NCBI RefSeq assembly: GCF_904846175.1
Contig: NZ_CAJGZM010000007.1
Location: 1-64,000, forward strand
Source: Psychrobacter immobilis
Lineage (GTDB): Bacteria > Pseudomonadota > Gammaproteobacteria > Pseudomonadales > Moraxellaceae
Reading direction: 5' to 3'
Length of the DNA: 64,000 nt
Made by a program: the position numbers and the translations under genes. Below the pieces are notes generated by a model, which was not told the origin of the DNA, made no database searches, and saw only the letters and a program-made list of their open reading frames with translations. Of the stretch, positions 24,364-40,722 are shown one piece after another; within the stretch, counting starts at the first letter, position 1; the number at the start of each line of letters is the position of its first letter.

Positions 24364-25434
24364 ATGACTCTCAAAAACCGTTTTCGCGCCGCCTTAACGC
24401 CCAGCGTATTTGTCCCCTCACTGGGTGCTATCACTGCCGGTGTCCTGATGATGACATTGCAAACCACTTCTGCTCAAGCAGCTGGACAGTATTATAACTG
24501 TGCCAATGCCACGGGCTGTAAGATGGTCGATAGCAAATATTTCACCTCAAACCATACCGATACCAAATATCCTATTGTCATGACTCATGGTCTGGTCGGC
24601 TTTACCAAGCTACTCGGTGTCGACTACTTTTATGGTATCCCGCAAACACTCATGAGCGGCGGCTCAAAAGTCTATGCTACCAAAACCTCTTCTTTTAATG
24701 ACAGTCGGGTGCGCGGTGAGCAGCTACTACAACAAGTAAAAACCATTAGTGCGATTTCTGGTAGCCCCAAGGTGAATTTAATTGGTCATAGTCATGGCGG
24801 CCATGATATTCGTTATGTCGCTGCCGTTGAGCCAAAATACGTGGCGTCAGTGACGGCGGTTTCCAGTCCAGAGCAAGGGGCGGCATTAGCAGATTGGGTG
24901 GTTGAGCAGATTGATAATGACAGAGTCAATGGCGAGTATAATACCGCCACCAAAGCCGCGCTTAGCTTGTTTGGCTTCTTAGGTAACTTCATGGATTTGA
25001 ACGCTGGTATCCCTATCGATAAGCTGCAAGAACAAGACGGATTTGGTGCAGTTACGGCGCTAACGACTGACTATATGGTCGATTTTAACCGTGAGTTCCC
25101 TGCTGCCATGCCATCAAGCTATTGTGGACAACCAAAAGACACTAAAGTAAACGGCATCAACTACTATTCATTCAGTGGTGTTGGTCAAGTGACCAACGTC
25201 TTAGACCCCATAGATTATGTGCTATTAGCGACATCACAAGTGTTTAAAAACGACCCAAATGATGGGTTGGTTTCTGCTTGTTCGAGCCGCCTAGGTTATG
25301 TGATTAGAGACGATTACAAAATGAACCATATGGATTCGGTCAATCAACTATTAGGCTTAGTTGCATGGGGACAACCTAATCCTAAAACTGTCTATCGTGA
25401 TCAGGTGAACCGTTTAAAAAATGCTAATTTATAA
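24364..25434 (+). CDS. Secreted triacylglycerol lipase, family I
   Basis: A 356-residue exported alpha/beta-hydrolase that hydrolyses long-chain triglycerides outside the cell. Signal peptide about 1-40 (ends TTSAQAA). The oxyanion block is PIVMTHGLVGF, the nucleophile elbow GHSHGG gives S143, and D300 (PNDGLV) and H322 (MNHMDSV) complete the triad. Cysteines fit the disulfide of foldase-dependent lipases. AAGGACG precedes the ATG. The next gene is its Lif foldase, consistent with type II secretion after periplasmic folding. Family I.1/I.2 placement is by resemblance. Confidence 0.95.
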   Translation: MTLKNRFRAALTPSVFVPSLGAITAGVLMMTLQTTSAQAAGQYYNCANATGCKMVDSKYFTSNHTDTKYPIVMTHGLVGFTKLLGVDYFYGIPQTLMSGGSKVYATKTSSFNDSRVRGEQLLQQVKTISAISGSPKVNLIGHSHGGHDIRYVAAVEPKYVASVTAVSSPEQGAALADWVVEQIDNDRVNGEYNTATKAALSLFGFLGNFMDLNAGIPIDKLQEQDGFGAVTALTTDYMVDFNREFPAAMPSSYCGQPKDTKVNGINYYSFSGVGQVTNVLDPIDYVLLATSQVFKNDPNDGLVSACSSRLGYVIRDDYKMNHMDSVNQLLGLVAWGQPNPKTVYRDQVNRLKNANL

Positions 25435-25511
25435 AGCCAATTTAAAAAGCTAGCTTCTAAATCTAGTGGTTGGGATTTGAATATAAATTAGCAAATTAAC
25501 CGCATTTACCT

Positions 25512-25546
25512 AAAAGGGTCACTACTTAACTGGCCCTTTTATTTTG
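25512..25546 (+). terminator. Hairpin with T-tract between lipase and foldase
   Basis: AAAAGGGTCA pairs with TGGCCCTTTT (one wobble) around a 9-nt loop, followed by ATTTT. It lies between two genes normally cotranscribed, so it may act as a partial terminator giving more lipase than foldase mRNA. Confidence 0.75.
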
Positions 25547-25606
25547 TCCCATTTTATAGATAGTCACTTCCTATTACATCGATTCATTAAATAAGATATT
25601 GTTGTT

Positions 25607-26713
25607 ATGTCAAATAATCGCCGTTCGCCATTTTTGCTCATTATTATCGCCGTGATAATCGTTTTAGTCGTGGCGATTATTTGGTGGTTTAAACCTGATA
25701 ATGCTCGTAAACCTTCTTCTCAAACAGATTCTACGGCGCTGAATAGCCAAGCTAATGCCAGCTCGATAAATGATGAAAATGTTAATAATGACATTGGCGC
25801 ATTATCTAAGCAAGACGCTTCTCAATTTACGACAGGCCTTGAAAATCTACCGCGCTCCTTGCAAGGGACGGATGTCGATGGCGAGATTATCATCGATGAA
25901 AATAAACAGTTGGTCGTCACCGAAGGGCTACGACGCTTATTTGATTATTTCTTATCGGCGCTAGGTGAAGAGGATGAAGCGGTTATTTATGCGCGGGTGG
26001 AGAGTTATATCCGCGGTCATACGCCAGAGCCTGCCGCCAGCCAAGCGGTGACGATATTTGACCAATATGTGGCCTATCTTAAAGCGATTCCTGCTATAGA
26101 AAGCCGTTATGGCAACCTGCAATTACAAGCAACAAAGAATGGCGAGCTAGATTTAAATGTAGTGACACAGCAGCAGCAAGATGTCGCCAAATTACGCCAA
26201 CAGCACTTTTCTAAAGAAACCATTAAAGCCTTTTTTGGTGCAGAGGATGAGTATGATGACTATAGTCTTGCGATGGTGAAAATCAATCAAGATAAGCAGA
26301 TGTCTGATGCGCAAAGAGAAGCGGCTAGACAGGATTATATTAGCCGTATGCCTGATAATGCGACCAAAGCCAATATCGCTCAGCAGGCAAATTTAGATGA
26401 GTTAATCAGTCGTACCGAACAGATGCAAGCTAAGGGCGCGACGGCTGAAGAATTATACAGTATGCGACGTGAATTGGTTGGCGCGCCAGCAGCAGCAAGG
26501 CTTGCCCAAGTCGATCAGCAAGATGCTAATTTTGATCAGCGTTTTAAGCAGTATCAAGCCCAAAAACAGCAGCTGTTAAGTCAAAATGCCGATAAGGCCC
26601 AAGCGAAAACCCAAATCACTCAAATGGAGCAGCAATTATTTAATGAGACGGAACGCAAACGCTTAGCAGGCTATGCGGCTTTGCAACAAAAAAAGACGGC
26701 AAGCCCCAATTAA
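25607..26713 (+). CDS. Lipase-specific foldase (Lif, lipase chaperone)
   Basis: A 368-residue membrane-anchored periplasmic steric chaperone needed to fold the preceding lipase. One N-terminal membrane helix (about 9-28) and an Asn/Ser/Gln-rich spacer (30-75) lead to the mini-domain with LPRSLQGTDVDG and the Lif signature RRLFDYFLSALGE (about 109-121), followed by the long helical arm of extended helices rich in Gln and Ala. All parts of a Lif protein are present. The start has no strong binding site. It follows the lipase by 172 nt with a hairpin between. Confidence 0.93.
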   Translation: MSNNRRSPFLLIIIAVIIVLVVAIIWWFKPDNARKPSSQTDSTALNSQANASSINDENVNNDIGALSKQDASQFTTGLENLPRSLQGTDVDGEIIIDENKQLVVTEGLRRLFDYFLSALGEEDEAVIYARVESYIRGHTPEPAASQAVTIFDQYVAYLKAIPAIESRYGNLQLQATKNGELDLNVVTQQQQDVAKLRQQHFSKETIKAFFGAEDEYDDYSLAMVKINQDKQMSDAQREAARQDYISRMPDNATKANIAQQANLDELISRTEQMQAKGATAEELYSMRRELVGAPAAARLAQVDQQDANFDQRFKQYQAQKQQLLSQNADKAQAKTQITQMEQQLFNETERKRLAGYAALQQKKTASPN

Positions 26714-27838: not shown

Positions 27839-28831
27839 ATGTTAAAAACCTTTGTATCAAAGCCATCTGTCAATATACGCATGATAAGTAGTGTCACGGC
27901 GATAACGGCTTTTAGTCTGTTAACGGGCTGTCAGACGTTGCCGAGCACGCTCACTAAAACGCCTGCTGATATGAGTGCGAGTAATCCGCTGACGGCACGC
28001 ATGCCAGTGATAGATCGGCAAGGGCACATTGCTTATGTCGAGGAACAAGGGTTTGGCGCTGCAAAGATATCGACGCTTTATAGCATTCGTCCTGATGGTA
28101 GCGACCGCCAATTGATTGATCAGCTCAATGGTTATATCTACGCGCCGGCGTGGTCTGCCGATGGTCAAATGCTCGCCTATAGTAAACAAGAAGCGCGCCA
28201 GCATCCCAAAATTTATATTTATGATCGCAAAAGCAATACCCAAAATCTAATCGTCAATGCCGAGGGCAGTAATTTATCAGCGTCATTTTCGCCTGATGGG
28301 CAAAAACTGCTTTATAGCTCAACCGTCGGCGGTAATGCTGATATCTATGAGATGCGCCTAAGTGACGGTCATACCAAGCAGCTTACCACGCTACCGAGCA
28401 CGGAAGTGCAGCCAAGCTACGCCAGCGACGGGCAAAGCTTTGTTTATACCAGCGATAAAGTCCGCGCTGGTCGGCCAAGTATTTATCGCTATAACTTTGC
28501 CACTGGCAATGCTGCGCTGATACCGACCGCAGGCTATGCGGCCAGTCCACAACTGAGCTTGGATGGTCAGTATTTGGCGTATCTTAATGGTCGCAAGGCA
28601 GCGGTGATGACACTTGCTACAAAACAGGTAATTAATCTGGCAGAGACAGGACTCGATGAGCCCGCGCGTCTGTCGCCTTCTGCACAGTATGCCGTTTATC
28701 CCACAAAGCTTTCTCAAGTGAACGGTCAAAATGGTGGCAGCTTAGTGATTCATTCTTTAACAGGCAATTCAAGCTACGCGATTAGCAGTAAAACAGGCGG
28801 AGTCGTGCGCTCACCCATTTGGGGTCGGTAA
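27839..28831 (+). CDS. TolB-like PD40 beta-propeller lipoprotein
   Basis: A 330-residue predicted lipoprotein. The signal sequence ends in LLTGC (Cys about 32). From about 60 on there are repeated PD40/TolB-type blades: YSIRPDGSDRQLI, PAWSADGQMLAYS, ASFSPDGQKLLYSS, PSYASDGQSFVYTSD, PQLSLDGQYLAYL and RLSPSAQYAVYPT, i.e. about six blades. It is not TolB itself: the N-terminal TolB domain is missing and no tol genes are adjacent. A periplasmic or outer-membrane scaffold or ligand-binding role is likely but unproven. Confidence 0.82.
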   Translation: MLKTFVSKPSVNIRMISSVTAITAFSLLTGCQTLPSTLTKTPADMSASNPLTARMPVIDRQGHIAYVEEQGFGAAKISTLYSIRPDGSDRQLIDQLNGYIYAPAWSADGQMLAYSKQEARQHPKIYIYDRKSNTQNLIVNAEGSNLSASFSPDGQKLLYSSTVGGNADIYEMRLSDGHTKQLTTLPSTEVQPSYASDGQSFVYTSDKVRAGRPSIYRYNFATGNAALIPTAGYAASPQLSLDGQYLAYLNGRKAAVMTLATKQVINLAETGLDEPARLSPSAQYAVYPTKLSQVNGQNGGSLVIHSLTGNSSYAISSKTGGVVRSPIWGR

Positions 28832-29174: not shown

Positions 29175-29831
29175 ATGCAAGAGTCTTTTTTAGTTTTTAT
29201 CACTAAAATCAGTTTGTACCCCACGATTATTTTTACGGGGCTTGTCATGTTCGTGACTCTATATTGGCTGGTGTCTTTACTCGGCATGGTAGATATGGAT
29301 AGCGTAGACCTTGGTGAGCCAGATGGTGATGTTTCTACCTTATCATCGACGGGTTTTTTTACCGGTCTCATGCTCAAATTTGGTCTTTATGGTGTGCCCC
29401 TCATCATCATACTAAGCTTAATCAGCTTAATCGGCTGGCTATTAAGCTACTTATATACGAGCTTTTTACATCAATATTTTGACTCTGGTCTTTTGTATTA
29501 CCTATTCGGTACAGGGGCGCTCATTTTTGTATTGGTCGTATCCATGTGGCTGACAGGTATGATTATTGCACCCATGCGCAAAAATATCGCCAAAACCCCC
29601 AAACATAACGCGTCTAGTAATATCGGTAAAATCGCCGTAGTACGTACCCTGAGTGTGACTGACAAACATGGTGAAGCAGAATTAAATGATGGCGGCGCAG
29701 GCTTGATACTCAAAATTCGTTCAGACATCAAGGATGATTTGCTAAGACAGGGCAATAGAGTGATGTTGGTAGAGTATTTAGAAGAAGCCAATACCTACCG
29801 AGTCGCTCCTGTAAAAGAAAAATCGCCATAA
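29175..29831 (+). CDS. yqiJ: YqiJ-like NfeD-type membrane protein (flotillin partner)
   Basis: A 218-residue membrane protein. Three membrane segments (about 15-38, 73-96, 103-127) and an acidic loop (VDMDSVDLGEPDGDVS) precede a C-terminal OB-fold (about 150-212; KIAVVRTLSVTDKHGEAELND...RVMLVEYLEEANTYRV). This is the architecture of YqiJ/YuaF, short NfeD-type proteins encoded beside flotillins and thought to help organise membrane microdomains. GGAGAG precedes the ATG. The flotillin gene follows 160 nt downstream, presumably in one operon. Confidence 0.85.
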   Translation: MQESFLVFITKISLYPTIIFTGLVMFVTLYWLVSLLGMVDMDSVDLGEPDGDVSTLSSTGFFTGLMLKFGLYGVPLIIILSLISLIGWLLSYLYTSFLHQYFDSGLLYYLFGTGALIFVLVVSMWLTGMIIAPMRKNIAKTPKHNASSNIGKIAVVRTLSVTDKHGEAELNDGGAGLILKIRSDIKDDLLRQGNRVMLVEYLEEANTYRVAPVKEKSP

Positions 29832-29990
29832 ACCGCTGCTATAAATAATTTTAAAATTGAAATAAATAATCTTTATACATTAGATTTATAAGTTGGCTGA
29901 TTGGCGATGTAGAGATAGCTAATAGTTTGTTTTTAAGTGTCGTATTACCTGTTTAAATTTGGTTGCAATGTTTTAATTAAAGGAATGAAT

Positions 29991-32048
29991 ATGGATATAC
30001 TCATTATCGTCGGCGTGGTCGTGGTGCTGGCGTTTGTTTTTATTATGGCAGCGCTTTTGATGCTCAAAGCCTTTTATTTTAAGGTTGAGCAGGGCAAAGC
30101 ACTGATTATCAACGGCGTGAGTAAAATCGCCGTACGTTTTGATGGCGGTTTTGTTTGGCCAATCATCAATAAAAAAGAATTGATGAGAATCTCCCTTATC
30201 ACTTTAGAAGTCGATAGACGCGGTAAAGAAGGGTTGATTTGCGCCGACAATATGCGTGCTGATATCACGGTGGCGTTTTACTTGCGTGTTAATGAAACCG
30301 AAGAAGACGTCCTTAAAGTTGCCAAATCGGTTGGGGTTGAAAGAGCTTCAGACAAAGTTGCCGTCAATGAGCTGTTTAATGCTAAGTTCTCAGAAGCATT
30401 AAAAACAGTGGGCAAGCAGATTGATTTTGTCAAACTCTTTGAAAATCGCAGCGAGTTCCGTGACAGTATCGTGCAAGAAATAGGTAATGATCTTAATGGT
30501 TATGTCTTAGAAGATGTGGCGATTGATTACTTAGAACAAACGCCAAAAGCGTCACTTGATTCAAACAATATTTTAGATGCTGAAGGTATCAAAAAGATTA
30601 CGCAGCTAACGGCCTTCCAAAACATCATTACCAATGAGCTTGAGCGTGACGAAGAGCTGGCTGTTAAGAAGAAAAACGTCGAGACTAAAGAGGCGATGCT
30701 TGAGCTTGAGCGTCAACAAGCCGATGCTGAAGCCAAACAGCGCCGTGAAATCGCGTCAGTGATTGCCCGTGAAACGGCTGAAACGCGCAAAATTGAAGAA
30801 GAAGAGCGTAAAAAGTCAGAGACAGCCGTTATCATGGTTGAGCAAGATTTAGCGATTCAGCGTGAAAATCAACAGCGTGAAATTGAAGTGGCCGGACAGA
30901 ATCGTCTACGTGCTGTCGTCATTGAAGAAGAAAAAGTCACGCGCGCTCGTGATTTAGAAATCGTCTCGCGTGAGCGGGAAGTTGATTTGCAACGTATCGA
31001 AGCTGAACGCGCGATTGAGCTTGAGAAAAAAGAAATTGCGAACGTCATACGTGAGCGTATTGCGGTAGATAAAACGGTTGCACAAGAAGAAGAACGTATC
31101 AAAGAAGTCCGTGAAATCAGTGCAGCCGAACGTTCTAAGCAAACGCGCGTCCTAGCCGCCGAAGCCGATGCCGAAGAAATCAAAGTGCGTCAAGTCAAAA
31201 AAGCCGAAGCAGAAGAGTTGTCTGCTAAGCATAAAGCGGTTGAGATTACCACGCTTGCGACGGCCAATCTTGACGCCTCGGCGAAAGATTCAGAAGCCAA
31301 AATTAAAATGGCGGAAGGTATCAAAGCAGAAGAGTCGGCACATGGCTTTGCTGAAGCGGCCATTCAAGAAGCTAAGTCAGTATCTTTAGAAAAAGAAGGC
31401 ATTGCCAAAGCTAATGTCATTAAAGCCACTGGACAAGCGGAAGCACAGTCAGAACGTGAAAAAGGTATGGCTGCTGCTGAGATTATCGCCGCTCGCGGTG
31501 AGTCCAATGCCAAAGCCGAACGTGATATCGGGATGGCAAATGCGCAAGTGATTGCCGCTCGTGGTGAATCAGATGCCAAGGCAGAACGTGAAGTTGGACT
31601 GGCAAAAGCAGAAGTTACCCGTGCGCATTTCCAAGCCGAAGCCGATGGTCTGGTCGAGAAATTCAATGCCATGGGCAGCATGACCAAAGAAGCGCGCGAG
31701 CACGAAGAGTTCCGTATGGGGCTTGAAACTGCGCTACAAGAAGCCATGGCATCTATTGAAGCTGGTAAAGAGATTGCCAAAGAAAATGCTGAAGTCTTGG
31801 CAGTTGCGCTACAAAAAGCCAAAATCGATATCGTTGGCGGTGAAGCGCACTTCTTCGATAACTTTGCCAAGTCGCTATCTATCGGTAAAGCCATTGATGG
31901 TCTCGCTGGTAAGTCAGATACGTTGAGCGGCATTATCAATACGATGATGGCCAATCAAATAATGACCAAAGCCAACAATACCAACAATACCAATAACGCC
32001 AACAAAGCTAATGATGAGTCTAATAAAACAGCTCAATATAACGACTAG
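29991..32048 (+). CDS. yqiK: Flotillin family protein YqiK
   Basis: A 685-residue membrane scaffold. One N-terminal membrane helix (about 3-25) is followed by an SPFH/band-7 domain (about 30-210, VEQGKALIINGVSKIAV...ADNMRADITVAFYLRV) and a long charged coiled coil (about 215-600). Near 490-555 it has repeats of the type E-x-G-M-A-x-A-x-(V/I)-I-A-A-R-G-E-S-x-A-K-A. The C-terminus is Asn/Thr-rich. AGGA six nt upstream selects this ATG over an earlier GTG. Flotillins oligomerise into membrane microdomains; YqiK in E. coli is linked to motility and stress. Followed by a terminator-like hairpin and then the giant ATPase gene. Confidence 0.93.
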   Translation: MDILIIVGVVVVLAFVFIMAALLMLKAFYFKVEQGKALIINGVSKIAVRFDGGFVWPIINKKELMRISLITLEVDRRGKEGLICADNMRADITVAFYLRVNETEEDVLKVAKSVGVERASDKVAVNELFNAKFSEALKTVGKQIDFVKLFENRSEFRDSIVQEIGNDLNGYVLEDVAIDYLEQTPKASLDSNNILDAEGIKKITQLTAFQNIITNELERDEELAVKKKNVETKEAMLELERQQADAEAKQRREIASVIARETAETRKIEEEERKKSETAVIMVEQDLAIQRENQQREIEVAGQNRLRAVVIEEEKVTRARDLEIVSREREVDLQRIEAERAIELEKKEIANVIRERIAVDKTVAQEEERIKEVREISAAERSKQTRVLAAEADAEEIKVRQVKKAEAEELSAKHKAVEITTLATANLDASAKDSEAKIKMAEGIKAEESAHGFAEAAIQEAKSVSLEKEGIAKANVIKATGQAEAQSEREKGMAAAEIIAARGESNAKAERDIGMANAQVIAARGESDAKAEREVGLAKAEVTRAHFQAEADGLVEKFNAMGSMTKEAREHEEFRMGLETALQEAMASIEAGKEIAKENAEVLAVALQKAKIDIVGGEAHFFDNFAKSLSIGKAIDGLAGKSDTLSGIINTMMANQIMTKANNTNNTNNANKANDESNKTAQYND

Positions 32049-32067
32049 TCATTTTAAGGTTAATAAC

Positions 32068-32102
32068 AAATCTGTTGCTTATGCTTAGGCGGCAGATTTT
32101 TT
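32068..32102 (+). terminator. Probable yqiK terminator
   Basis: AAATCTGTTGC pairs with GCGGCAGATTT (two G-T wobbles), with a 10-nt loop and a T-run, 20 nt past the yqiK stop codon. Confidence 0.75.
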
Positions 32103-32264
32103 AGCCTGAGAAGCTAAGATTACCTTACTGGAAAATGATAAATTTTCTTTTGTATTAGGATAAAGCTCTTCCAGATCTTTATTATTTCCTAGCTCATAGC
32201 TTTGCAAGGGAAACTCTTTAAATAGCATTTCTATGAAGTAGTTTTGCCAACTTAAGACAATGAG

Positions 32265-32317
32265 TTGGCTAATCTAAGAAAACCAGCGATGACCACTCGT
32301 TTTCTTAGATTAGCCAA
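32265..32317. repeat. Perfect 19-bp inverted repeat
   Basis: TTGGCTAATCTAAGAAAAC (32265-32283) and its exact reverse complement (32299-32317) flank a 15-nt spacer. No T-tract follows. It may be an operator, a structured leader of the ATPase mRNA, or a miniature mobile element end pair. Confidence 0.9.
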
Positions 32318-32382
32318 GCGCTTCTTTGATTAAAAAAACTTAGATTTATCTTATTGCCTGAAAATAAAATGGACGAGCAACG

Positions 32383-35300
32383 ATGGCGGACACGCAAAAC
32401 GCAACCAATTCAAATAATACCAATAGCCAGCACCAATCCGAGCAAACGGATCAAGCGGTCGCTTCAGGTAATGCTTATGAGCTTATTAAAAAACGTCTTA
32501 GTGAGCAAGGTAGTCGGCTAGAGCAACAGACCGCTAAGCTGAATCAGGCGCGACTAGCGGAATTTGGCAGTACTCAAATGCAAGTCATCGCCCGCACCCG
32601 TATTCGCACCGAATACAACTGTGTGGCGCAAGATATGGTACAAGTTGGCGATTATCTGTTGTTTGGCTACAATGTCTTTATGGGGCTAAAGCGGGCGAGT
32701 AATATTAAAGATGTGTTGTCGCTATATCGATTGATAGATCCTGCTAATAAAAATGGTGATAATAATAGCGAAAACGTTGTTGATACTGAGAACAGTGCAA
32801 CTACAGCAAACACTGAAAGTACTGCCGATAACAGTAATAGCAGCGAACATACTGAGCAAGAATATCAGCTGGAAGAAGTAGATTTAAAAAATACCTTTTT
32901 AGATCAAGAAGCATTTGTCCAAGATTTTAACGAGTTATATCGATATTACAGGCAAACGCGCCTGATTCAGCTGACCGTCAAAGACAGCAAATTGCTATTG
33001 GCGTTTCAAATTGGCGAGCGTATCACCGATATTCGCGTCTTTCGTTTTGCCCTAGATTTTAGCCAAGGCATACCAGAGTCAGCTCAAATTGCCTATGTAG
33101 ATAATCGAGGCGAGCGTGATATCGAGTTGCCTCCTGCCTACGATTTTGATTGGGTAGATACCACGCGTGATCAGATGATCAATGGTAAATATCCGCATAT
33201 GAATATCTTAGATACCATATTTGTGGAAACCATTGGTGGCGATTTGACCATTAAGATTGAGGATAACACCCAATCAGGGCAGGGTATTTATAGTGAGCCT
33301 GTAAATGATCGCACCCAATCGCTGACCGATGCCGAGATTGCTTATGCCAAAGTTGGCAGTTTAATACTGCTGAAAATACGGCCGTATCGCGAAGACAGCT
33401 ATCGTTATTTTGTTTATAACACTTTGACCGAAGCCGTATTGCGTTTGGATGCGATTGGGCAGTCGTGTGTGCAGCTGCCAGAAGATCACGGTATTATATT
33501 TCCCGGTGGTTATTATCTGCAAACCGGTGAGTATAAGCTGTTCGATGCCAATAGCGCCGGTGCTAAAGACTTAAAGTTTAAACGTAAAATCGTATCGCCT
33601 AATGGTGAAGACGTGTTGTTTTTATTTTACGATGTCGCTTTAGGCATCACAGGATTATTTCCTTATAACCTCATTAAAAAACAACTGGCAAATCCCATTT
33701 ACTGCAATGGTATGGCATTGGCTGACAATGGGTGTTTGGTACTGTTTAATGACCAAAGTGAGCCGTCACGTATTCACCCGATGCAGATATGGCATACGCC
33801 TTATGCTTCACCTGAATATGTCAGTGAGTTGCCTGAAAGCACCAGTTTTTATGGCAAAATCGGCAATAAAGAATTGGTACGTGGTATTTCCGACCTTTAT
33901 AGTATCACCCGCCTGATTGATAATCAAAGCGTGTCACAAAAGCTCTATGAAGAGCTAGCGGATAATACCAGCCGCCTATTTGATAGTTATTACTGGTTGT
34001 CCGATCCTGAGCTTAACGACGTCGCCAGTAGTATCAAGGAAGTAACGGCGACAGCTGAATTAGTCATTGATGAGTTTGCAAAAGTACAAAGCATCCAAAA
34101 GCAAACCCAAACCGCTTTAAGTGATGCCGACACTCAGCAAAATGAGATATTACGGCAAATACGTGTGACTACTTTTGAGTCTGCCGGTGATTATGTGGAG
34201 CAGCTGTCGGCGTTAAGACGACAAAAAGGCCGCTTGGTCAGCTTGGAGGACTTGCGTTATTTAGATAGCGATAAGCTAAAGGCATTGCGGAGACAGTTAG
34301 AAGAGGCAGAAAGCGAGCTTGCCGAAAAAACCGTCCTATTTTTAAGCGGGGAAAAAGCGCTATCAAGCTACGAAGCTATATTAGTAGATGTCAGTGAGCG
34401 CTTAAACACGGCCGAGACCAATGCTGAGCTAAAGCCAGTACTCAAAAAAATTGATGATACGGCGCAAGGCTTAGATCTGTTGACTGAGCTATTAGGCACG
34501 TTAGATGTTGCTGATGCCACGGTACGCACCCAAATTATCGATGACATATCGACCATTTATTCGAGTCTCAATCAAAGCAAAGCCAAGCTCAATCATAAGC
34601 GCAAAAACTTAGGCTCTGCCGAAGCAGTTGCGCAGTTTGGTGCGCAGTTTAAGCTGTTTGGTCAGTCGATTGCTAACGCTTTATCGATTGCTAATACGCC
34701 TGAGAAATCAGACGAGCAAATGGCAAAGCTATTGGTACAGTTAGAAGAATTGGAAAGTCAGTTCGCTGATCCAGAGAGCGGTAGTGGTGATCAATTTTTA
34801 GTGGATATCGTAGCCAAGCGTGAAGAGATTTACGAAACCTTTGAAAATCATAAGCAGCAACTGCTTGATACTCGTAATCGTAAAGCCCAGAACTTAGGTG
34901 ATGGCGCATTACGAATGCTTGAGAGCATTAAAAAACGTACCCAAAGTACAGGCGTGACAGGTTTTGTCGATGAGGAGGCATTAAACACCTATTTTGCGGC
35001 AGACGGTCTGGTACAAAAAGTACGTGCTATCGCCAAAGACTTGCAAGCGATGGGCTTTAGTGTCAAAGCAGATGATATTGATGCCCGCCTAAAAGCCATA
35101 CAAATAGAGAGTTATAAGAGTCTAAAAGATAAGTCTGACTTATTCGAAGATGGCGGTCAGATTATTAAATTGGGCAAGCACCGCTTTTCAGTCAATACCC
35201 AGCCTTTAGATTTAACGTTGCTCAGTCGTCAGCAGTCAGATGGCAAGCGCATTCTCAATTTACATCTAACGGGCACCGATTATTATGAAGTACTCAATAA

Positions 35301-38300
35301 TACTGAGCTAAACGCCTTGCGCCCGTATTGGGATGTGAATATCGCCTCCGAGTCTGACACCGTGTATCGTGCCGAGTATTTAGCGTATAGCATCATTGAG
35401 AGTGCTAAAAACAGCCAAGATGGATTGACGGAAGCGCGGTTATATCAAGCTTATGATGAGACTTTGCTGACCTTAGACAGCAATGGCGAGATTGACGATG
35501 ACAGCCCGCTACCCAAATTGGTCAAAGCTTATGCCACACCGCGCTATCAGCTCGGTTATGAGAAGGGCATTCATGACCATGATGCCACGCGGTTGTTAAT
35601 GCAAATACTACCCACGCTTCGTGAAGCTGGGCTCCTGATTTATACCCCGCAAGTCCGCGCATTGGCGCAGTTATTCTATTGGCAATTGAGCCTAGTACAA
35701 GCGCTCGGTTTAGACGGCCTACAGCAATTTGGTTATGACACTTGGCTTAATGATTCGGTGCTGACGCGAGTCAATAACTGGACGGATAGAGCCATCACTG
35801 CCGAGCAACTACGCCGCACGTTAGGTAGTGACAGTGCAAAAGCGCTATTGGTCGAAGATATGACCCATGTGATGCGTCACTTTGTGAGTGCTTATCATGA
35901 TGACAGGATTAGTAGTAATAACAGTAATAGCAATGCTGATAAGCCATCAGACTCAGAACTAGATTTAAATACTAGTGATGTTCATAACACTAACATTTTT
36001 CAGCAAAGCCATGTCCAGCTTGCCAGTGAATACTTGGTCAGCGTCATGGGGCAAGTCACTGTGCCCAATAGCAACATCGAGTGGCAAACCAGCCAACAAG
36101 CCCAGCAATTATGCGCGCAGTTGAGTAAAACACTCAATAGCTCATCAGGAAACGTGTCAAATAATGCAAGCTTTGAGCAATTACAGTCCTCAGTTGGCAA
36201 GCTTGGTTTGCAGCCAAAATCGGCTTATGAATTGCTCGCTACATGGTTCCACGCGCTGCTCGATCAAATGTATGGCAATACCAAAACGGCTGACAGTCAG
36301 AGTGAGTCAAGTGGCGATAATGCACTTAGTGAAGAACAGCTGACGAGTATTGAAGAAAAAGAAACCTTACGCCAACAGCAGTTGGAGAGTGGTCGCCATT
36401 ACTTGCCCGAAGCGATTGCGATCTTACTCACTCAATTTAATGACACCCAGCGTGAGGAGTTAGTGCAACGCCTCATAGAGTCAGGCGCAACAAGCACTTC
36501 GTTTTCAGCGCCCTCGTTAACTAGCCTCAATAACCCACTCAATCAAGTGCAAAGTTTCGAGCGTCGCACAGGTAAGGTGTCGCTTGAGAGTCAGGTCAAG
36601 CATTTACTGGGCGATCATACCCGTATCCAGCAGCAAACCTTGACCTTTGCCGTCGATGATTTCTTAAGCCGTTTGCATCATCATGATACCCAAGTCATTC
36701 GTGCTTATAAGCGTTACTTAGCCGTGCGCTCAGAGATTTTGCATGACTCAAAAGAAACATTGCGACTTGATGAGTTTATGCCTCGTCCCTTATCCTCATT
36801 TGTGCGTAACCGTTTGATTAATGAAAGTTATTTACCTTTGATTGGCGATAACCTTGCCAAACAGATGGGCACGGTTGGCGATGATAAACGTACCGACTTG
36901 ATGGGTATCCTCATGATGATATCGCCACCAGGTTACGGTAAAACCACCTTAATGGAATACGTCGCCAATCGTCTTGGCCTCATCTTTATGAAAATTAATT
37001 GTCCCTCCCTCGGTCATGACGTGACTTCATTAGATCCCGAAAAAGCACCCAATGCCACCGCACGAGAAGAGTTGAATAAAATTAACTTAGCTTTTGAGAT
37101 GGGCAATAACGTCATGCTCTATCTCGACGATATCCAGCATACCCATGCAGAATTCTTGCAGAAATTTATATCGCTCGGTGATGGTACGCGCCGTATCGAT
37201 GGCGTTTGGCAAGGCAAAACTAAAACCTATGATATGCGCGGCAAAAAGTTCTGCGTCGTCATGGCGGGTAACCCCTATACCGAAAGTGGTGAGGCGTTCA
37301 AAGTCCCTGATATGCTCGCCAACCGTGCCGATATCTATAATTTAGGCGATATCATGAGCGGCATGGAAGAGATATTTGCCCTCAGTTATATCGAAAACTC
37401 GCTCACCTCAAACGCAGTATTAGCACCACTTGCCAACCGCGATTTGAGCGATGTGCACCGCCTCATTAAAATGGCGAAAACTGACAATGCCAACCTTGCC
37501 CAAGCGCAAAGCAGCGAGCTGACTTATCCGTATAGCACCTCGGAGATTAACGAGATTATCGCTATTTTGCGCCATATGTTTACCGTGCAAAAAGTTATTC
37601 TCGACGTCAATCAAGCCTATATTGCGTCCGCCTCGCAAGATGATAAATACCGCGTTGAGCCGATATTTAAGCTGCAAGGTAGTTATCGTAATATGAATAA
37701 GATGACTGAGAAATTGTCGGCGGTCATGAATCAAGAAGAGCTGAATCAACTAATCGACGATCATTATCTAGGTGAATCGCAGTTATTAACCCAAGGCGCT
37801 GAGAGTAACTTACTCAAGCTTGCCGAGATGCGTGGTGTCTTAACGGCAGCAGAAAAAGAACGTTGGGTGCAAATCAAGGCTGACTTCTTACGTAACAAAG
37901 CCATGGGCGGCGAAGACGGTGATACAGGCGCGCGCATTGTCGCTCAGTTGGTTGATCTAGCCAGTGGTTTCAATGCCATCAGCAGCCAGTTTGAGAAATA
38001 TTTAACCCAAAACAATCCAGAGCAAATCGCTCGCTTACGACAAGCAGGACAGCAAGCGCAGTTAAAGACTCAGCTAGACGCGCAACTAGAATTACAAAAA
38101 ATCCTCGCCGATAGCTTTGTCAGTAATGCTAAAGCCGTCAGCGACAGCATTGATAATGGCTTTGAGAAGAGCATGAATCAGCTGATGCAAATCTATAAGC
38201 ATGATCACAATGCTGAAAAGGCGGAAGGCGAGCAGCTCAAGCAAAACCAAGAGATGCAAAAACAGCTGATGGTGCAGTTGGTGGATGCCGTCGAGCAACT

Positions 38301-38571
38301 GGCACATAAAATGGCTGATAGCTTGTCTAATAGCTTAACGGAAAGCCTGCTTAAGCATGAGGAGAACATAGCGAAGCAAACGCCAGCTATCGATGTGCCT
38401 GACATTACAACACAGATGGCACTCATGGTAAATGCGCTCAAAGAGGCGCTTGCACCACTCAATATGCGCATGGATGAAAAGCTAGCAATCGATAGCAGCA
38501 CCGATCAATCAGGTAAGCTGATCGTAAATAGCCTCAATCGGCTGAATAAAATATTTGATGATTATGACTAG
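32383..38571 (+). CDS. Giant AAA+ ATPase, DNA repair ATPase (DUF3686-type) family
   Basis: A 2062-residue protein. The AAA+ module is near the C-terminus: Walker A PPGYGKTT (1515-1522), Walker B VMLYLDD (1577-1583) and a sensor-1-like VVMAGNPY (N1630). The N-terminal ~500 residues look beta-rich and propeller-like; about 540-900 is coiled coil. Asn/Ser/Thr-rich insertions lie near 125-165 and 1185-1215. The C-terminal ~250 residues are again helical and Gln-rich. It fits proteins annotated as DNA repair ATPase, whose function is not established; the name is historical. The start has a weak binding site. It sits between the flotillin pair and two zinc-ribbon genes, so a membrane-associated remodelling role is a reasonable guess. 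Confidence 0.85.
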   Translation: MADTQNATNSNNTNSQHQSEQTDQAVASGNAYELIKKRLSEQGSRLEQQTAKLNQARLAEFGSTQMQVIARTRIRTEYNCVAQDMVQVGDYLLFGYNVFMGLKRASNIKDVLSLYRLIDPANKNGDNNSENVVDTENSATTANTESTADNSNSSEHTEQEYQLEEVDLKNTFLDQEAFVQDFNELYRYYRQTRLIQLTVKDSKLLLAFQIGERITDIRVFRFALDFSQGIPESAQIAYVDNRGERDIELPPAYDFDWVDTTRDQMINGKYPHMNILDTIFVETIGGDLTIKIEDNTQSGQGIYSEPVNDRTQSLTDAEIAYAKVGSLILLKIRPYREDSYRYFVYNTLTEAVLRLDAIGQSCVQLPEDHGIIFPGGYYLQTGEYKLFDANSAGAKDLKFKRKIVSPNGEDVLFLFYDVALGITGLFPYNLIKKQLANPIYCNGMALADNGCLVLFNDQSEPSRIHPMQIWHTPYASPEYVSELPESTSFYGKIGNKELVRGISDLYSITRLIDNQSVSQKLYEELADNTSRLFDSYYWLSDPELNDVASSIKEVTATAELVIDEFAKVQSIQKQTQTALSDADTQQNEILRQIRVTTFESAGDYVEQLSALRRQKGRLVSLEDLRYLDSDKLKALRRQLEEAESELAEKTVLFLSGEKALSSYEAILVDVSERLNTAETNAELKPVLKKIDDTAQGLDLLTELLGTLDVADATVRTQIIDDISTIYSSLNQSKAKLNHKRKNLGSAEAVAQFGAQFKLFGQSIANALSIANTPEKSDEQMAKLLVQLEELESQFADPESGSGDQFLVDIVAKREEIYETFENHKQQLLDTRNRKAQNLGDGALRMLESIKKRTQSTGVTGFVDEEALNTYFAADGLVQKVRAIAKDLQAMGFSVKADDIDARLKAIQIESYKSLKDKSDLFEDGGQIIKLGKHRFSVNTQPLDLTLLSRQQSDGKRILNLHLTGTDYYEVLNNTELNALRPYWDVNIASESDTVYRAEYLAYSIIESAKNSQDGLTEARLYQAYDETLLTLDSNGEIDDDSPLPKLVKAYATPRYQLGYEKGIHDHDATRLLMQILPTLREAGLLIYTPQVRALAQLFYWQLSLVQALGLDGLQQFGYDTWLNDSVLTRVNNWTDRAITAEQLRRTLGSDSAKALLVEDMTHVMRHFVSAYHDDRISSNNSNSNADKPSDSELDLNTSDVHNTNIFQQSHVQLASEYLVSVMGQVTVPNSNIEWQTSQQAQQLCAQLSKTLNSSSGNVSNNASFEQLQSSVGKLGLQPKSAYELLATWFHALLDQMYGNTKTADSQSESSGDNALSEEQLTSIEEKETLRQQQLESGRHYLPEAIAILLTQFNDTQREELVQRLIESGATSTSFSAPSLTSLNNPLNQVQSFERRTGKVSLESQVKHLLGDHTRIQQQTLTFAVDDFLSRLHHHDTQVIRAYKRYLAVRSEILHDSKETLRLDEFMPRPLSSFVRNRLINESYLPLIGDNLAKQMGTVGDDKRTDLMGILMMISPPGYGKTTLMEYVANRLGLIFMKINCPSLGHDVTSLDPEKAPNATAREELNKINLAFEMGNNVMLYLDDIQHTHAEFLQKFISLGDGTRRIDGVWQGKTKTYDMRGKKFCVVMAGNPYTESGEAFKVPDMLANRADIYNLGDIMSGMEEIFALSYIENSLTSNAVLAPLANRDLSDVHRLIKMAKTDNANLAQAQSSELTYPYSTSEINEIIAILRHMFTVQKVILDVNQAYIASASQDDKYRVEPIFKLQGSYRNMNKMTEKLSAVMNQEELNQLIDDHYLGESQLLTQGAESNLLKLAEMRGVLTAAEKERWVQIKADFLRNKAMGGEDGDTGARIVAQLVDLASGFNAISSQFEKYLTQNNPEQIARLRQAGQQAQLKTQLDAQLELQKILADSFVSNAKAVSDSIDNGFEKSMNQLMQIYKHDHNAEKAEGEQLKQNQEMQKQLMVQLVDAVEQLAHKMADSLSNSLTESLLKHEENIAKQTPAIDVPDITTQMALMVNALKEALAPLNMRMDEKLAIDSSTDQSGKLIVNSLNRLNKIFDDYD

Positions 38572-38626
38572 GGCGTTGGTAATAGAGGTAAACTATCGAT
38601 GTATAAAATAAACCACTGAGAAAAAT

Positions 38627-38797
38627 ATGGCGCACAAGAAAAAGAATGTTCGAAAAAAACTCTGTCCAGTCTGTGAGCGTGAGTTTAGTTGGACTAAAAA
38701 GCTAGATAAAAACTGGGAGAGTATGGTTTATTGCTCAGACCAATGTCGCCGCGTGAAAAAGTATGAAGGGTTGGATCATAAAAAAGAAGATAGATAA
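38627..38797 (+). CDS. DUF2256 zinc-ribbon micro-protein, copy 1
   Basis: A 56-residue protein starting MAHKKKNVRKKLCPVCEREF. It has the DUF2256 pattern: CPVC, a W-x-K-K-x(4)-W stretch (WTKKLDKNW), YCSDQC and RRVKK. The four cysteines (13, 16, 36, 40) should bind one zinc. In other genomes such proteins are found next to photolyase or cryptochrome-like genes; here a photolyase lies 25 kb away. The start is 55 nt after the ATPase stop codon. Binding site weak (GAG). Function unknown; nucleic-acid or protein binding is plausible. Confidence 0.85.
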   Translation: MAHKKKNVRKKLCPVCEREFSWTKKLDKNWESMVYCSDQCRRVKKYEGLDHKKEDR

Positions 38798-38836
38798 ACG
38801 TTAATAGTGAAGTAGAGATATAGAAGGGAGCAGACG

Positions 38837-38977
38837 ATGGCACATAAAAAAGTAAACCTACCGCAAAAAATCTGCCCCGTCTGTCAGCGTCTGTTTAGCT
38901 GGCGTAAAAAGTGGGAAAAGGATTGGGAGCAGGTAATTTATTGTTCTGAGAAGTGTCGGCGGACTAAAAAGGATTAA
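38837..38977 (+). CDS. DUF2256 zinc-ribbon micro-protein, copy 2
   Basis: A 46-residue paralogue of the preceding gene: [20 protein letters not shown], then [19 protein letters not shown] and RRTKKD. It is closer to the family consensus (CPVC, WRKKW) than copy 1 and lacks its C-terminal tail. AAGGGAG precedes the ATG. Cysteines again at 13, 16, 36 and 40. The 39-nt gap and shared spacing of cysteines indicate tandem duplication followed by divergence. Confidence 0.87.
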
Positions 38978-39072: not shown

Positions 39073-40722
39073 TTATAGTTTTGATGTATCAAAATAGGCT
39101 TTAGCAAAGTTAGAGATATTTTCATGACGATTTAGAATTTCACTTTCTTCCCATTGAGAGTTATTTCTGATCTCGGTATAGCTAGTCAAGGCAGTATTTT
39201 GGAATAAATCTCTTTTATCTTCGAAAGACTTATTAGTAAACTGGCTGTTTTGACTTTTTGTCAATAAAGCCAAATTTCCCGATAGATGTAGATAGTTTTC
39301 TTTGAATAACTCTGAATGTTCTTTTTGTCTAGGGTTTTGAGGGTTAATATGTTCAATTGTATAATCATCAAATAGCGCTTTATCTATTAATGACCCTGAA
39401 CGATTCAGTAAGCGTAGATGATTTTCATATTGCCATAATACAAACTTAATTCTATTTCCACTATAATGCATTTTATTATTATCAAAATAGTTATCAATTA
39501 TATTCTTGAATCTATCATTATCGTTCCAATACCACTTAAAGCCTACTTCAGCAGCCTGCTTTATTTCGTCGTAAAGAGAGTTAAGTTTATAGTCATTTAT
39601 GTCTTTAAAGTAATGTCTGGCAAAAGTAGGAAGTCTATCAGTACGATAGTCACCTAGCTTTAACTTAAAACATAGAACTTCGAGTAGTTTTAATATATCT
39701 CGATATTTATCACCCGAGTTGTCACCTTTATAATATAAGGCTAGAGTAATAATCTTCCAGTTGGCAGCATTACCAAGTAAGAAAAGATTAGCTAACGTAT
39801 TGTCATCTTTATTTGTAACTATACTCTTAGCACTATGAGTGAATTCTACAAAATTTTCGAAGAATAACTGAATCCAAGCTACTCTTTCAGCTTGTTTAGA
39901 TAGTTGTTTCTTGATGTCTTCGGTTGTACCTTGGATTCCATAAAACAAAAGGCAATAATTATTAAGAAGTTCACTTTCGCTAAAATAACCTTCTACAGAT
40001 TCAATATATCTATAGATTTTAGAAATATTATTTTGGATGTCTTTTACTGCGTTATTTGCTTCATTATCATCCGGGCTATAGATATAAAGCTGATGCATTA
40101 AATAAGCTTTGATTATTTCAAATGTAGATAAAGATTTACCTCGATTATTTTGGTATTCAAAAAGTTGCGTTGCTTCAACTTTACTTGAGATATAAAACGT
40201 ATTTATAACGGCAGTTTCAAGAGAGTACTGTAATTGGGATAACCTATCAGTATTTAAAATATTTAATTTAGTTTCAAATAATACAAATGCGTCAATAATT
40301 CGCTTTTGAGAAAGGGTTTCAGTGTTATCAATTTTTGATACTAGATGTTTTTGGGTTACTTTCTTGAATATAACCTGATCATCTTCAATCGTTCTAAAAA
40401 CATCAGTTAAGTAGGTGTCTTTAATAGTGGTAACATCTTCATCTCTTAAAGATTTCACTTTGCTTAGGGCAGAAAGAAATAGTAGGGTAGTAGTAAGACG
40501 CTGTTGTCCATCAATAATAAAAAATTTACTCTCATCTTTTTCAAATAACAGTTGACCTAAATAATAGCTTTTGCCATTCTGCTCCATAAGGTCTTCAAAA
40601 AATTGTTCACAATGTTTCTGCTCCCAACTATATGCGCGTTGATATGCTGGTATTCTGATTTCTTCTAAGTTTTGGAAAAGTTGTCTAATGGTTCTTGGGT
40701 TTTCCAATGCATTGTTATACAT
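39073..40722 (-). CDS. DUF262/DUF1524 protein, single-chain GmrSD-like
   Basis: A 549-residue protein. The N-terminal DUF262 (ParB-like) domain has IPAYQRAYSWE (24-34) and DGQQRLTT (71-78), the NTP-binding/hydrolysis motif. The C-terminal DUF1524 HNH-type nuclease has IEHINPQNP (H458) and then GNLALLTKSQNSQFTNKSFEDK. Fused DUF262-DUF1524 proteins include type IV restriction enzymes (GmrSD, BrxU) and SspE, which attack modified or unmodified phage DNA; many members are uncharacterised. The gene is visibly more AT-rich than its neighbours, suggesting transfer. No methylase or BREX/Ssp partner is adjacent. AAAGGT lies upstream of the ATG. Confidence 0.85.
   Translation of the reverse strand: MYNNALENPRTIRQLFQNLEEIRIPAYQRAYSWEQKHCEQFFEDLMEQNGKSYYLGQLLFEKDESKFFIIDGQQRLTTTLLFLSALSKVKSLRDEDVTTIKDTYLTDVFRTIEDDQVIFKKVTQKHLVSKIDNTETLSQKRIIDAFVLFETKLNILNTDRLSQLQYSLETAVINTFYISSKVEATQLFEYQNNRGKSLSTFEIIKAYLMHQLYIYSPDDNEANNAVKDIQNNISKIYRYIESVEGYFSESELLNNYCLLFYGIQGTTEDIKKQLSKQAERVAWIQLFFENFVEFTHSAKSIVTNKDDNTLANLFLLGNAANWKIITLALYYKGDNSGDKYRDILKLLEVLCFKLKLGDYRTDRLPTFARHYFKDINDYKLNSLYDEIKQAAEVGFKWYWNDNDRFKNIIDNYFDNNKMHYSGNRIKFVLWQYENHLRLLNRSGSLIDKALFDDYTIEHINPQNPRQKEHSELFKENYLHLSGNLALLTKSQNSQFTNKSFEDKRDLFQNTALTSYTEIRNNSQWEESEILNRHENISNFAKAYFDTSKL

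Follow-up and report, generated by a model that had tools for sequence, protein, structure and literature searches.

A flotillin, an NfeD-like protein and a giant, putatively MoxR-like AAA+ ATPase inherited together in Psychrobacter immobilis and its relatives

Bacterial flotillins lack a clear mechanism. In Staphylococcus aureus, the flotillin FloA and its NfeD partner at membrane microdomains are described as an ATP-independent system, in which unfolded proteins are stabilised at no direct expense of energy (Ukleja et al. 2024, PMC11222466). In Escherichia coli, the NfeD-like gene yqiJ is followed by the flotillin gene yqiK, and no ATPase lies beside them. Abbreviated operons of band-7/flotillin, YqiJ/YuaF and AAA+ genes have been described by Ravi et al. 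(2024, PMC11237479), whose passages on these operons also report PspA, CesT/Tir (DUF2170) and PLD proteins in this context. Here we describe a locus with the same basic gene set in a stretch of 64,000 nucleotides (the window) from Psychrobacter immobilis (RefSeq assembly GCF_904846175.1, contig NZ_CAJGZM010000007.1, positions 1 to 64,000 of the forward strand), the host genome comprising 3.12 Mb in 28 contigs and being 99.94% complete. The genes are a distantly YqiJ-like gene (J), a flotillin gene (K) and a gene for a propeller/coiled-coil AAA+ ATPase (A); like FloA-NfeD, K and J are proposed to pair a flotillin with an NfeD-type partner, but this locus carries a dedicated ATPase.

The three genes J, K and A do form a unit, which is tightly inherited and has been outlined before in the literature. 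New here are the strict co-inheritance, the predicted MoxR-like assignment of the ATPase, the exclusion of the neighbouring DUF2256 genes, the rhomboid protease genes found in relatives and, in the K-A gap, a hairpin specific to the genus. A preliminary description of the window had listed five open reading frames (ORFs) on this strand, whose presence and order were borne out when the ORFs were checked, and had treated them as one unit; the last two, which encode zinc-ribbon peptides, proved to belong to the flank. The parts of the three-gene unit are as follows.

29175..29831, + strand: J, 218 aa, NfeD/YqiJ-like membrane protein (from hydropathy and a family distantly related to YqiJ)
29991..32048, + strand: K, 685 aa, flotillin-type SPFH protein; ORF 29937-32048, ATG at 29991 (from Band_7, identity to YqiK and hydropathy)
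32383..38571, + strand: A, 2062 aa, AAA+ ATPase of the DUF3686 family
32518..33993, + strand: DUF3686 region of A (residues 46-537), predicted beta-propeller (Pfam and model)
34354..34608, + strand: DUF7902 of A (residues 658-742), inside the helical middle (Pfam and model)
36757..37839, + strand: putative MoxR/CbbQ/NorQ-like AAA+ domain of A (about residues 1459-1819; model comparison and conserved motifs)

Co-inheritance and gene order of J, K and A

The DUF3686 family is uncommon, being present in 10 of 397 genomes sampled across the phylum (the host genome included), 35 of 293 genomes of the order and 51 of 90 genomes of the genus, and in 28 of 188 genomes from the phylum of a Polyangia metagenome-assembled genome, which we take to be Myxococcota. 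When K was searched for in the order sample at E<=1e-60, K and A were found in the identical 35 genomes and neither in the other 258 (Fisher p 4e-46; this and the later Fisher p-value ignore relatedness). Within the genus, K was present in 50 of the 51 genomes with A and in none of the 39 without it; the sole genome with A and no K (G873) is 89% complete, and five of the genomes lacking A held only a distant SPFH protein with 28-29% identity. Whereas Ravi et al. give the ATPase as present 'in some cases' (PMC11237479), K and A were thus never found one without the other among the 293 genomes of the order, and this flotillin subfamily offers bacterial flotillins a concrete, deletable partner.

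Outside Psychrobacter, 81 loci were compared, of which 75 were kept after removal of 6 duplicates at 97% identity (54 gammaproteobacterial and 21 from the Myxococcota phylum). The preliminary description had made its case depend on whether the ATPase lies beside flotillin genes in most relatives, and the J-K-A core came through this comparison: the three genes lie in this order on one strand at 67 of the 75 loci (16 of 21 in the Myxococcota phylum), and K adjoins A at 70, with a median K-A gap of about 86 bp. The triplet is incomplete at L062, L073, L076, L091 (at a contig edge), L186, L189, L193 and L194. Another comparison covered 72 loci, mostly Psychrobacter, that are the best of 393 relatives; judged by A, the nearest relatives with a name belong to Psychrobacter. 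The ORF caller starts at the first ATG, GTG or TTG, so that J-K gaps and the rhomboid gaps given below can be off, and it misses genes without a closed ORF, probably the reason why L146 is missing from the locus table.

Twelve sites in genomes of the genus without A, picked for having DUF2256 matches, were also inspected. No match to J, K or A was found at the site in 11 of them, while the twelfth (L209) keeps a 3' relic of A together with one DUF2256 gene; the block was therefore lost by deletion in the L209 genome. In several other genomes of the genus (G862, G874, G898 and G913) A is split or contains stops, and the unit is therefore dispensable and decaying in places.

Predicted structure of the proteins and a proposed role

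Hydropathy analysis of J revealed hydrophobic stretches near residues 6-36, 73-91 and 114-132, followed by a C-terminal part. J itself gave no Pfam or NCBIfam match to the YqiJ family, including YqiJ_N and YqiJ_OB, but an alignment of its family with E. coli YqiJ (hhalign) reached a probability of 87.8 (E 3e-6), and YqiJ_N was matched by 6 of 29 members of the family (E up to 0.1, best 2e-4). The J family is probably a distant relative of YqiJ, as judged from these profile comparisons. K possesses a single N-terminal hydrophobic segment (residues 3-21), a Band_7 domain that was detected when the N-terminal 243 aa were scanned alone (E 8.8e-11; the full-length protein gave no Pfam match) and then a long, charged, coiled-coil-like stretch. 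The C-terminal pieces of K had no Pfam match, and the NCBIfam FloT model scored 17 bits against a cut-off of 700, although composition bias may mask matches here. Over 464 aa, K shares 28% identity with E. coli YqiK (E 1e-36). The earlier labels of J and K are qualified by these results.

A matched DUF3686 (PF12458) with an E-value of 6.6e-190 and 631.8 bits (curated cut-off 25), and additionally DUF7902 and AAA domains in Pfam; its sequence-level PDB matches were weak and centred on the Walker-A area. Two AlphaFold2 models, covering residues 25-900 (model 1) and 880-2062 (model 2), were built from alignments of 81 and 82 sequences, with a predicted local distance difference test score (pLDDT) of 85.2 and 82.5 and a predicted template modelling score (pTM) of 0.64 and 0.70, respectively. 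Positions 40-449 of model 1 gave a structural match list dominated by beta-propellers, with Z about 8-9, and a helical region follows; Foldseek also returned propeller-type matches, at low TM-scores. The propeller assignment was accepted despite these middling values because propellers dominate the match list. The propeller-like and coiled-coil parts named in the preliminary description are thus borne out by prediction, while its Gln-rich part is weakly marked (Gln makes up 11.0% of the final 182 residues and 6.9% of the whole protein).

The AAA+ domain of A was most similar to CbbQ2 in VIA-align comparisons (Z 17.4, root-mean-square deviation 3.7, 251 of 267 residues), with NorQ (Z up to 16.5), dynein AAA modules (15.3) and ClpA (13.6) scoring lower. 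Its motifs comprise a Walker A (PPGYGKTT from residue 1515), a Walker B (LYLDD, 1579), GNPYTE (1629) and NRAD (1647), and the Walker A, both Walker-B Asp residues, GNPYTE and NRAD are each conserved in at least 97% of the 82 sequences; we presume that the conserved residues fulfil the usual Walker A/B, sensor and Arg roles. In the model, a beta-hairpin precedes the sensor strand, and no strands were assigned in the helix-2 region, the place of the insert in MoxR-class members. Because CbbQ and NorQ are the top matches and the motifs are conserved, A was read as a MoxR-like remodeller and not as a repair enzyme, and a chaperone-type role fits the predicted fold better than DNA repair. A would share the AAA+ fold and nucleotide-binding motifs with the MoxR-class chaperones, which include CbbQ, NorQ and RavA, but it differs from them in its length of 2062 aa, its fusion to a predicted beta-propeller and coiled coil, and its pairing with a flotillin.

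On balance, we lean towards the view that J, K and A form one accessory machine, in which a flotillin/NfeD-like scaffold is served by its own MoxR-like motor for the remodelling of membrane-protein clients. K would be anchored by its one N-terminal segment, with the SPFH domain and coiled coil probably cytoplasmic, and, together with J, would build a ring or cage at the inner membrane; flotillin cages on membranes are described as cone-shaped (PMC11260169). A would be a cytoplasmic, presumably hexameric motor, bringing its own beta-propeller and coiled-coil docking arm, that docks on the K/J scaffold and spends ATP to remodel, mature or rescue the membrane-protein complexes gathered there. A membrane-tethered remodelling machine would be compatible with the modelled MoxR-like fold, and MoxR ATPases are credited with chaperone-like roles in the maturation of protein complexes, including respiratory complexes (PMC3893208, PMC13036017).

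Several observations weigh against this proposal. The propeller matches are middling, as given above, and Foldseek E-values put the DNA motor RuvB first for the AAA part (8.8e-6), whereas VIA-align ranks CbbQ/NorQ first. No gene for a VWA protein, the customary partner of MoxR ATPases, was recognised at the locus, where not every neighbour is annotated and to which the search was confined. In Moraxella boevrei (L062), K and A lie apart, the flotillin being elsewhere in the genome, and the perfect co-occurrence of two neighbouring genes partly reflects gain and loss of the whole block. Expression of K and A may be uncoupled within the genus by the hairpin that separates them. Finally, deletions of SPFH genes in Pseudomonas aeruginosa and of yqiK in E. 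coli are reported to be without pronounced phenotype (PMC13086221 and PMC2636767, respectively).

Accessory partners in relatives and competing explanations

Partner genes were counted with hidden Markov models (HMMs) built from the neighbour clusters of the first 33 loci, so that distant members, especially at loci of the Myxococcota phylum, may be missed. A rhomboid protease gene was present at 15 of the 54 gammaproteobacterial loci (PF01694 E 1.4e-17 for the L074 protein), always on the same strand, following A in 14 cases and preceding J in the other. Most lie directly after A (gaps of -77 to 363 bp, five of exactly -4, that is, a 4-bp overlap), although a TerB-like gene sits between A and the rhomboid gene in L144. 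The His in the last helix and, in an H[LI]xxN stretch, the Asn are kept in all 15 proteins and GASG in 14 (GASV in L087); we take the His, the Asn and the conserved GxS pattern to be the catalytic residues. The rhomboid HMM was made from 8 members; nine of the rhomboid loci are among the 32 of the discovery set, and 6 of the 22 gammaproteobacterial loci fetched after the cluster had been defined also carry the gene. On a quick FastTree phylogeny, the rhomboid label requires 8 changes over 72 labelled rows, and the gene is therefore an old or repeatedly gained accessory.

These genes would fit a membrane-protein quality-control hub in which the ATPase and an intramembrane rhomboid are brought together by the flotillin scaffold, with A extracting or presenting clients for cleavage. 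We regard this as rather doubtful; no rhomboid was found at the window's locus or at the 21 loci of the Myxococcota phylum. The host genome encodes three rhomboids, all away from J-K-A. The one nearest to the module type (L212, module-HMM E 4e-22) was considered as a displaced partner and rejected, being present in 87 of 90 members of the genus whatever their A status, without co-inheritance. A broader and about as doubtful form of the idea is that, in its complete state, the system serves bacterial membrane-protein quality control as a hub: a flotillin cage would collect a MoxR-like motor, an intramembrane rhomboid protease and, in numerous species, also the ESCRT-III-like PspA. The window would hold its minimal rhomboid- and PspA-free form, where the motor might convert a passive flotillin holdase into an ATP-driven remodeller.

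With the same reserve, the hub might be a bacterial counterpart, with different AAA+ parts, of SLP2-PARL-YME1L in mitochondria and of erlin-derlin-p97; measured against this SPY-like type, rhomboid genes occur at relatives' loci and not at the window's. The rhomboid link offers a direct route to asking whether, as in organelles, bacterial SPFH scaffolds join with AAA+ motors and intramembrane proteases into hubs. Judged by title, none of the papers listed in our literature searches was on this link, and the main text of PMC11237479 never uses the term 'rhomboid', although its supplements may hold a rhomboid row.

Less likely again is the PspA-dependent, ESCRT-like membrane remodelling put forward by Ravi et al. 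(2024), in which damaged inner membrane would be acted on jointly by the ATPase, the flotillin, PspA and a CesT/Tir chaperone. PspA and/or DUF2170 genes do accompany 34 of the 75 loci, mostly upstream of J on the same strand (divergent in 7), but no PspA was found at the 21 loci of the Myxococcota phylum with an HMM from gammaproteobacterial members. In its discussion of these operons, PMC11237479 suggests that PspA is in the operon or elsewhere in the genome, whereas a search of the host genome with PspA_IM30 (PF04012) gave no match, the same control search being positive in 9 of 14 known genomes. The AAA+ domain of A is, moreover, predicted to be MoxR-like and is not nearest to Vps4-type ATPases among its structural matches.

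Other genes that recur at gammaproteobacterial loci outside Psychrobacter encode PLD-like, TerB-like and Zn_ribbon_TFIIB proteins. The small TerB-like proteins are encoded between K and A in L079 and L092 and near A in L074, L122 and L144. An uncharacterised 111-aa family is encoded near PspA/DUF2170 genes, about 3-5 kb upstream of A, at 13 of the 54 gammaproteobacterial loci (L131, L132, L134, L136, L139 and L143 among them). At loci of the Myxococcota phylum, no strand-consistent partner beyond J and K occurred in three or more loci.

That A is a DNA repair ATPase, as its Pfam description states, is very improbable. The Pfam name and the best Foldseek E-value, to RuvB, speak for it; A is strictly coupled to a membrane flotillin, CbbQ and NorQ come first over the whole domain, and no DNA-repair gene was recognised among the recurrent neighbours, most of whose clusters are unannotated. 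The preliminary description had distrusted this label, with good reason. A literature search for DUF3686 found no paper, and none of the matches listed for DUF1449, flotillin and ATPase was on this system by its title.

The DUF2256 pair, the K-A hairpin and other flanking genes

The unit is followed by one further pair of features.

38627-38797 and 38837-38977, + strand: two DUF2256 zinc-ribbon ORFs, in the flank and outside the J-K-A unit (Pfam and genus counts)

That these peptides, both of which match DUF2256 in Pfam, are adaptors in a five-gene machine, as the preliminary description had proposed, is scarcely tenable: although the pair lies 55 bp behind A on the same strand and other zinc-ribbon proteins (Zn_ribbon_TFIIB) are encoded near some ATPase loci elsewhere, DUF2256 was found in 82 of 90 members of the genus without significant association with A (48 of 51 with it, 34 of 39 lacking it; Fisher p 0.29), the two genes follow a TolB-like gene directly at 11 of the 12 inspected sites without A (28 bp apart at the closest, L208), and no DUF2256 match was found at any of the 33 non-Psychrobacter ATPase loci of the first batch, the only batch searched for it. 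DUF2256 was accordingly ruled out as a module member by the genus-wide counts and by the J-K-A-free sites that retain it. The preliminary reading thus survives in its J-K-A core and not in its adaptors, and both the 'DNA repair' label, which misleads, and the seeming connection with zinc ribbons are removed. In the window, the TolB-like propeller gene lies upstream of J (27839-28831), and the DUF2256 pair may be its real neighbours.

A GmrSD-type (type IV restriction) gene at 39073-40722 on the - strand is convergent to the DUF2256 pair and has PADLOC matches to HEC-06, Orf5, SspE and mREase_IV. A role of the unit in anti-phage defence was considered and rejected, as J, K, A and DUF2256 gave no PADLOC match at E 0.01 and the neighbouring GmrSD gene is convergent. 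One exact-pattern scan of viral contigs found no relatives of A.

The gap between K and A contains an inverted repeat.

32265..32317, + strand: inverted repeat or putative RNA hairpin, 19 bp perfect, in the K-A gap (z -5.45; recurrent at the same place in the genus)

Its TTGGCTNNNCTAA...TTAGNNNAGCCAA arrangement occurs 29 times in 63 Psychrobacter loci outside the window. Of the 48 named Psychrobacter loci, 26 carry the hairpin, each time between K and A, and it also stands just before A in L151-L153, which are second copies of the loci L055, L048 and L049. None of the 12 loci without A carries it, and several other Psychrobacter loci, e.g. L037, L040 and L053, gave no such repeat in a less strict scan. 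In a set of 17 sequences, made up of the window's and those of 16 of these 26 loci picked to differ, four pairs of the hairpin change on both sides (shuffle mean 0.9, the value being reached by 1 of 500 shuffles), and compensated changes occur in L034 and L058. A palindromic protein site would also change symmetrically and is an alternative to an RNA hairpin. No U-tail was seen after the repeat, and we suggest that RNA processing or attenuation takes place here and would reduce A compared with K.

Further upstream, at 24364-26713, an alpha/beta hydrolase gene is followed by a Lipase_chap gene, probably encoding a secreted lipase and its foldase, and these genes often stay in synteny around the site.

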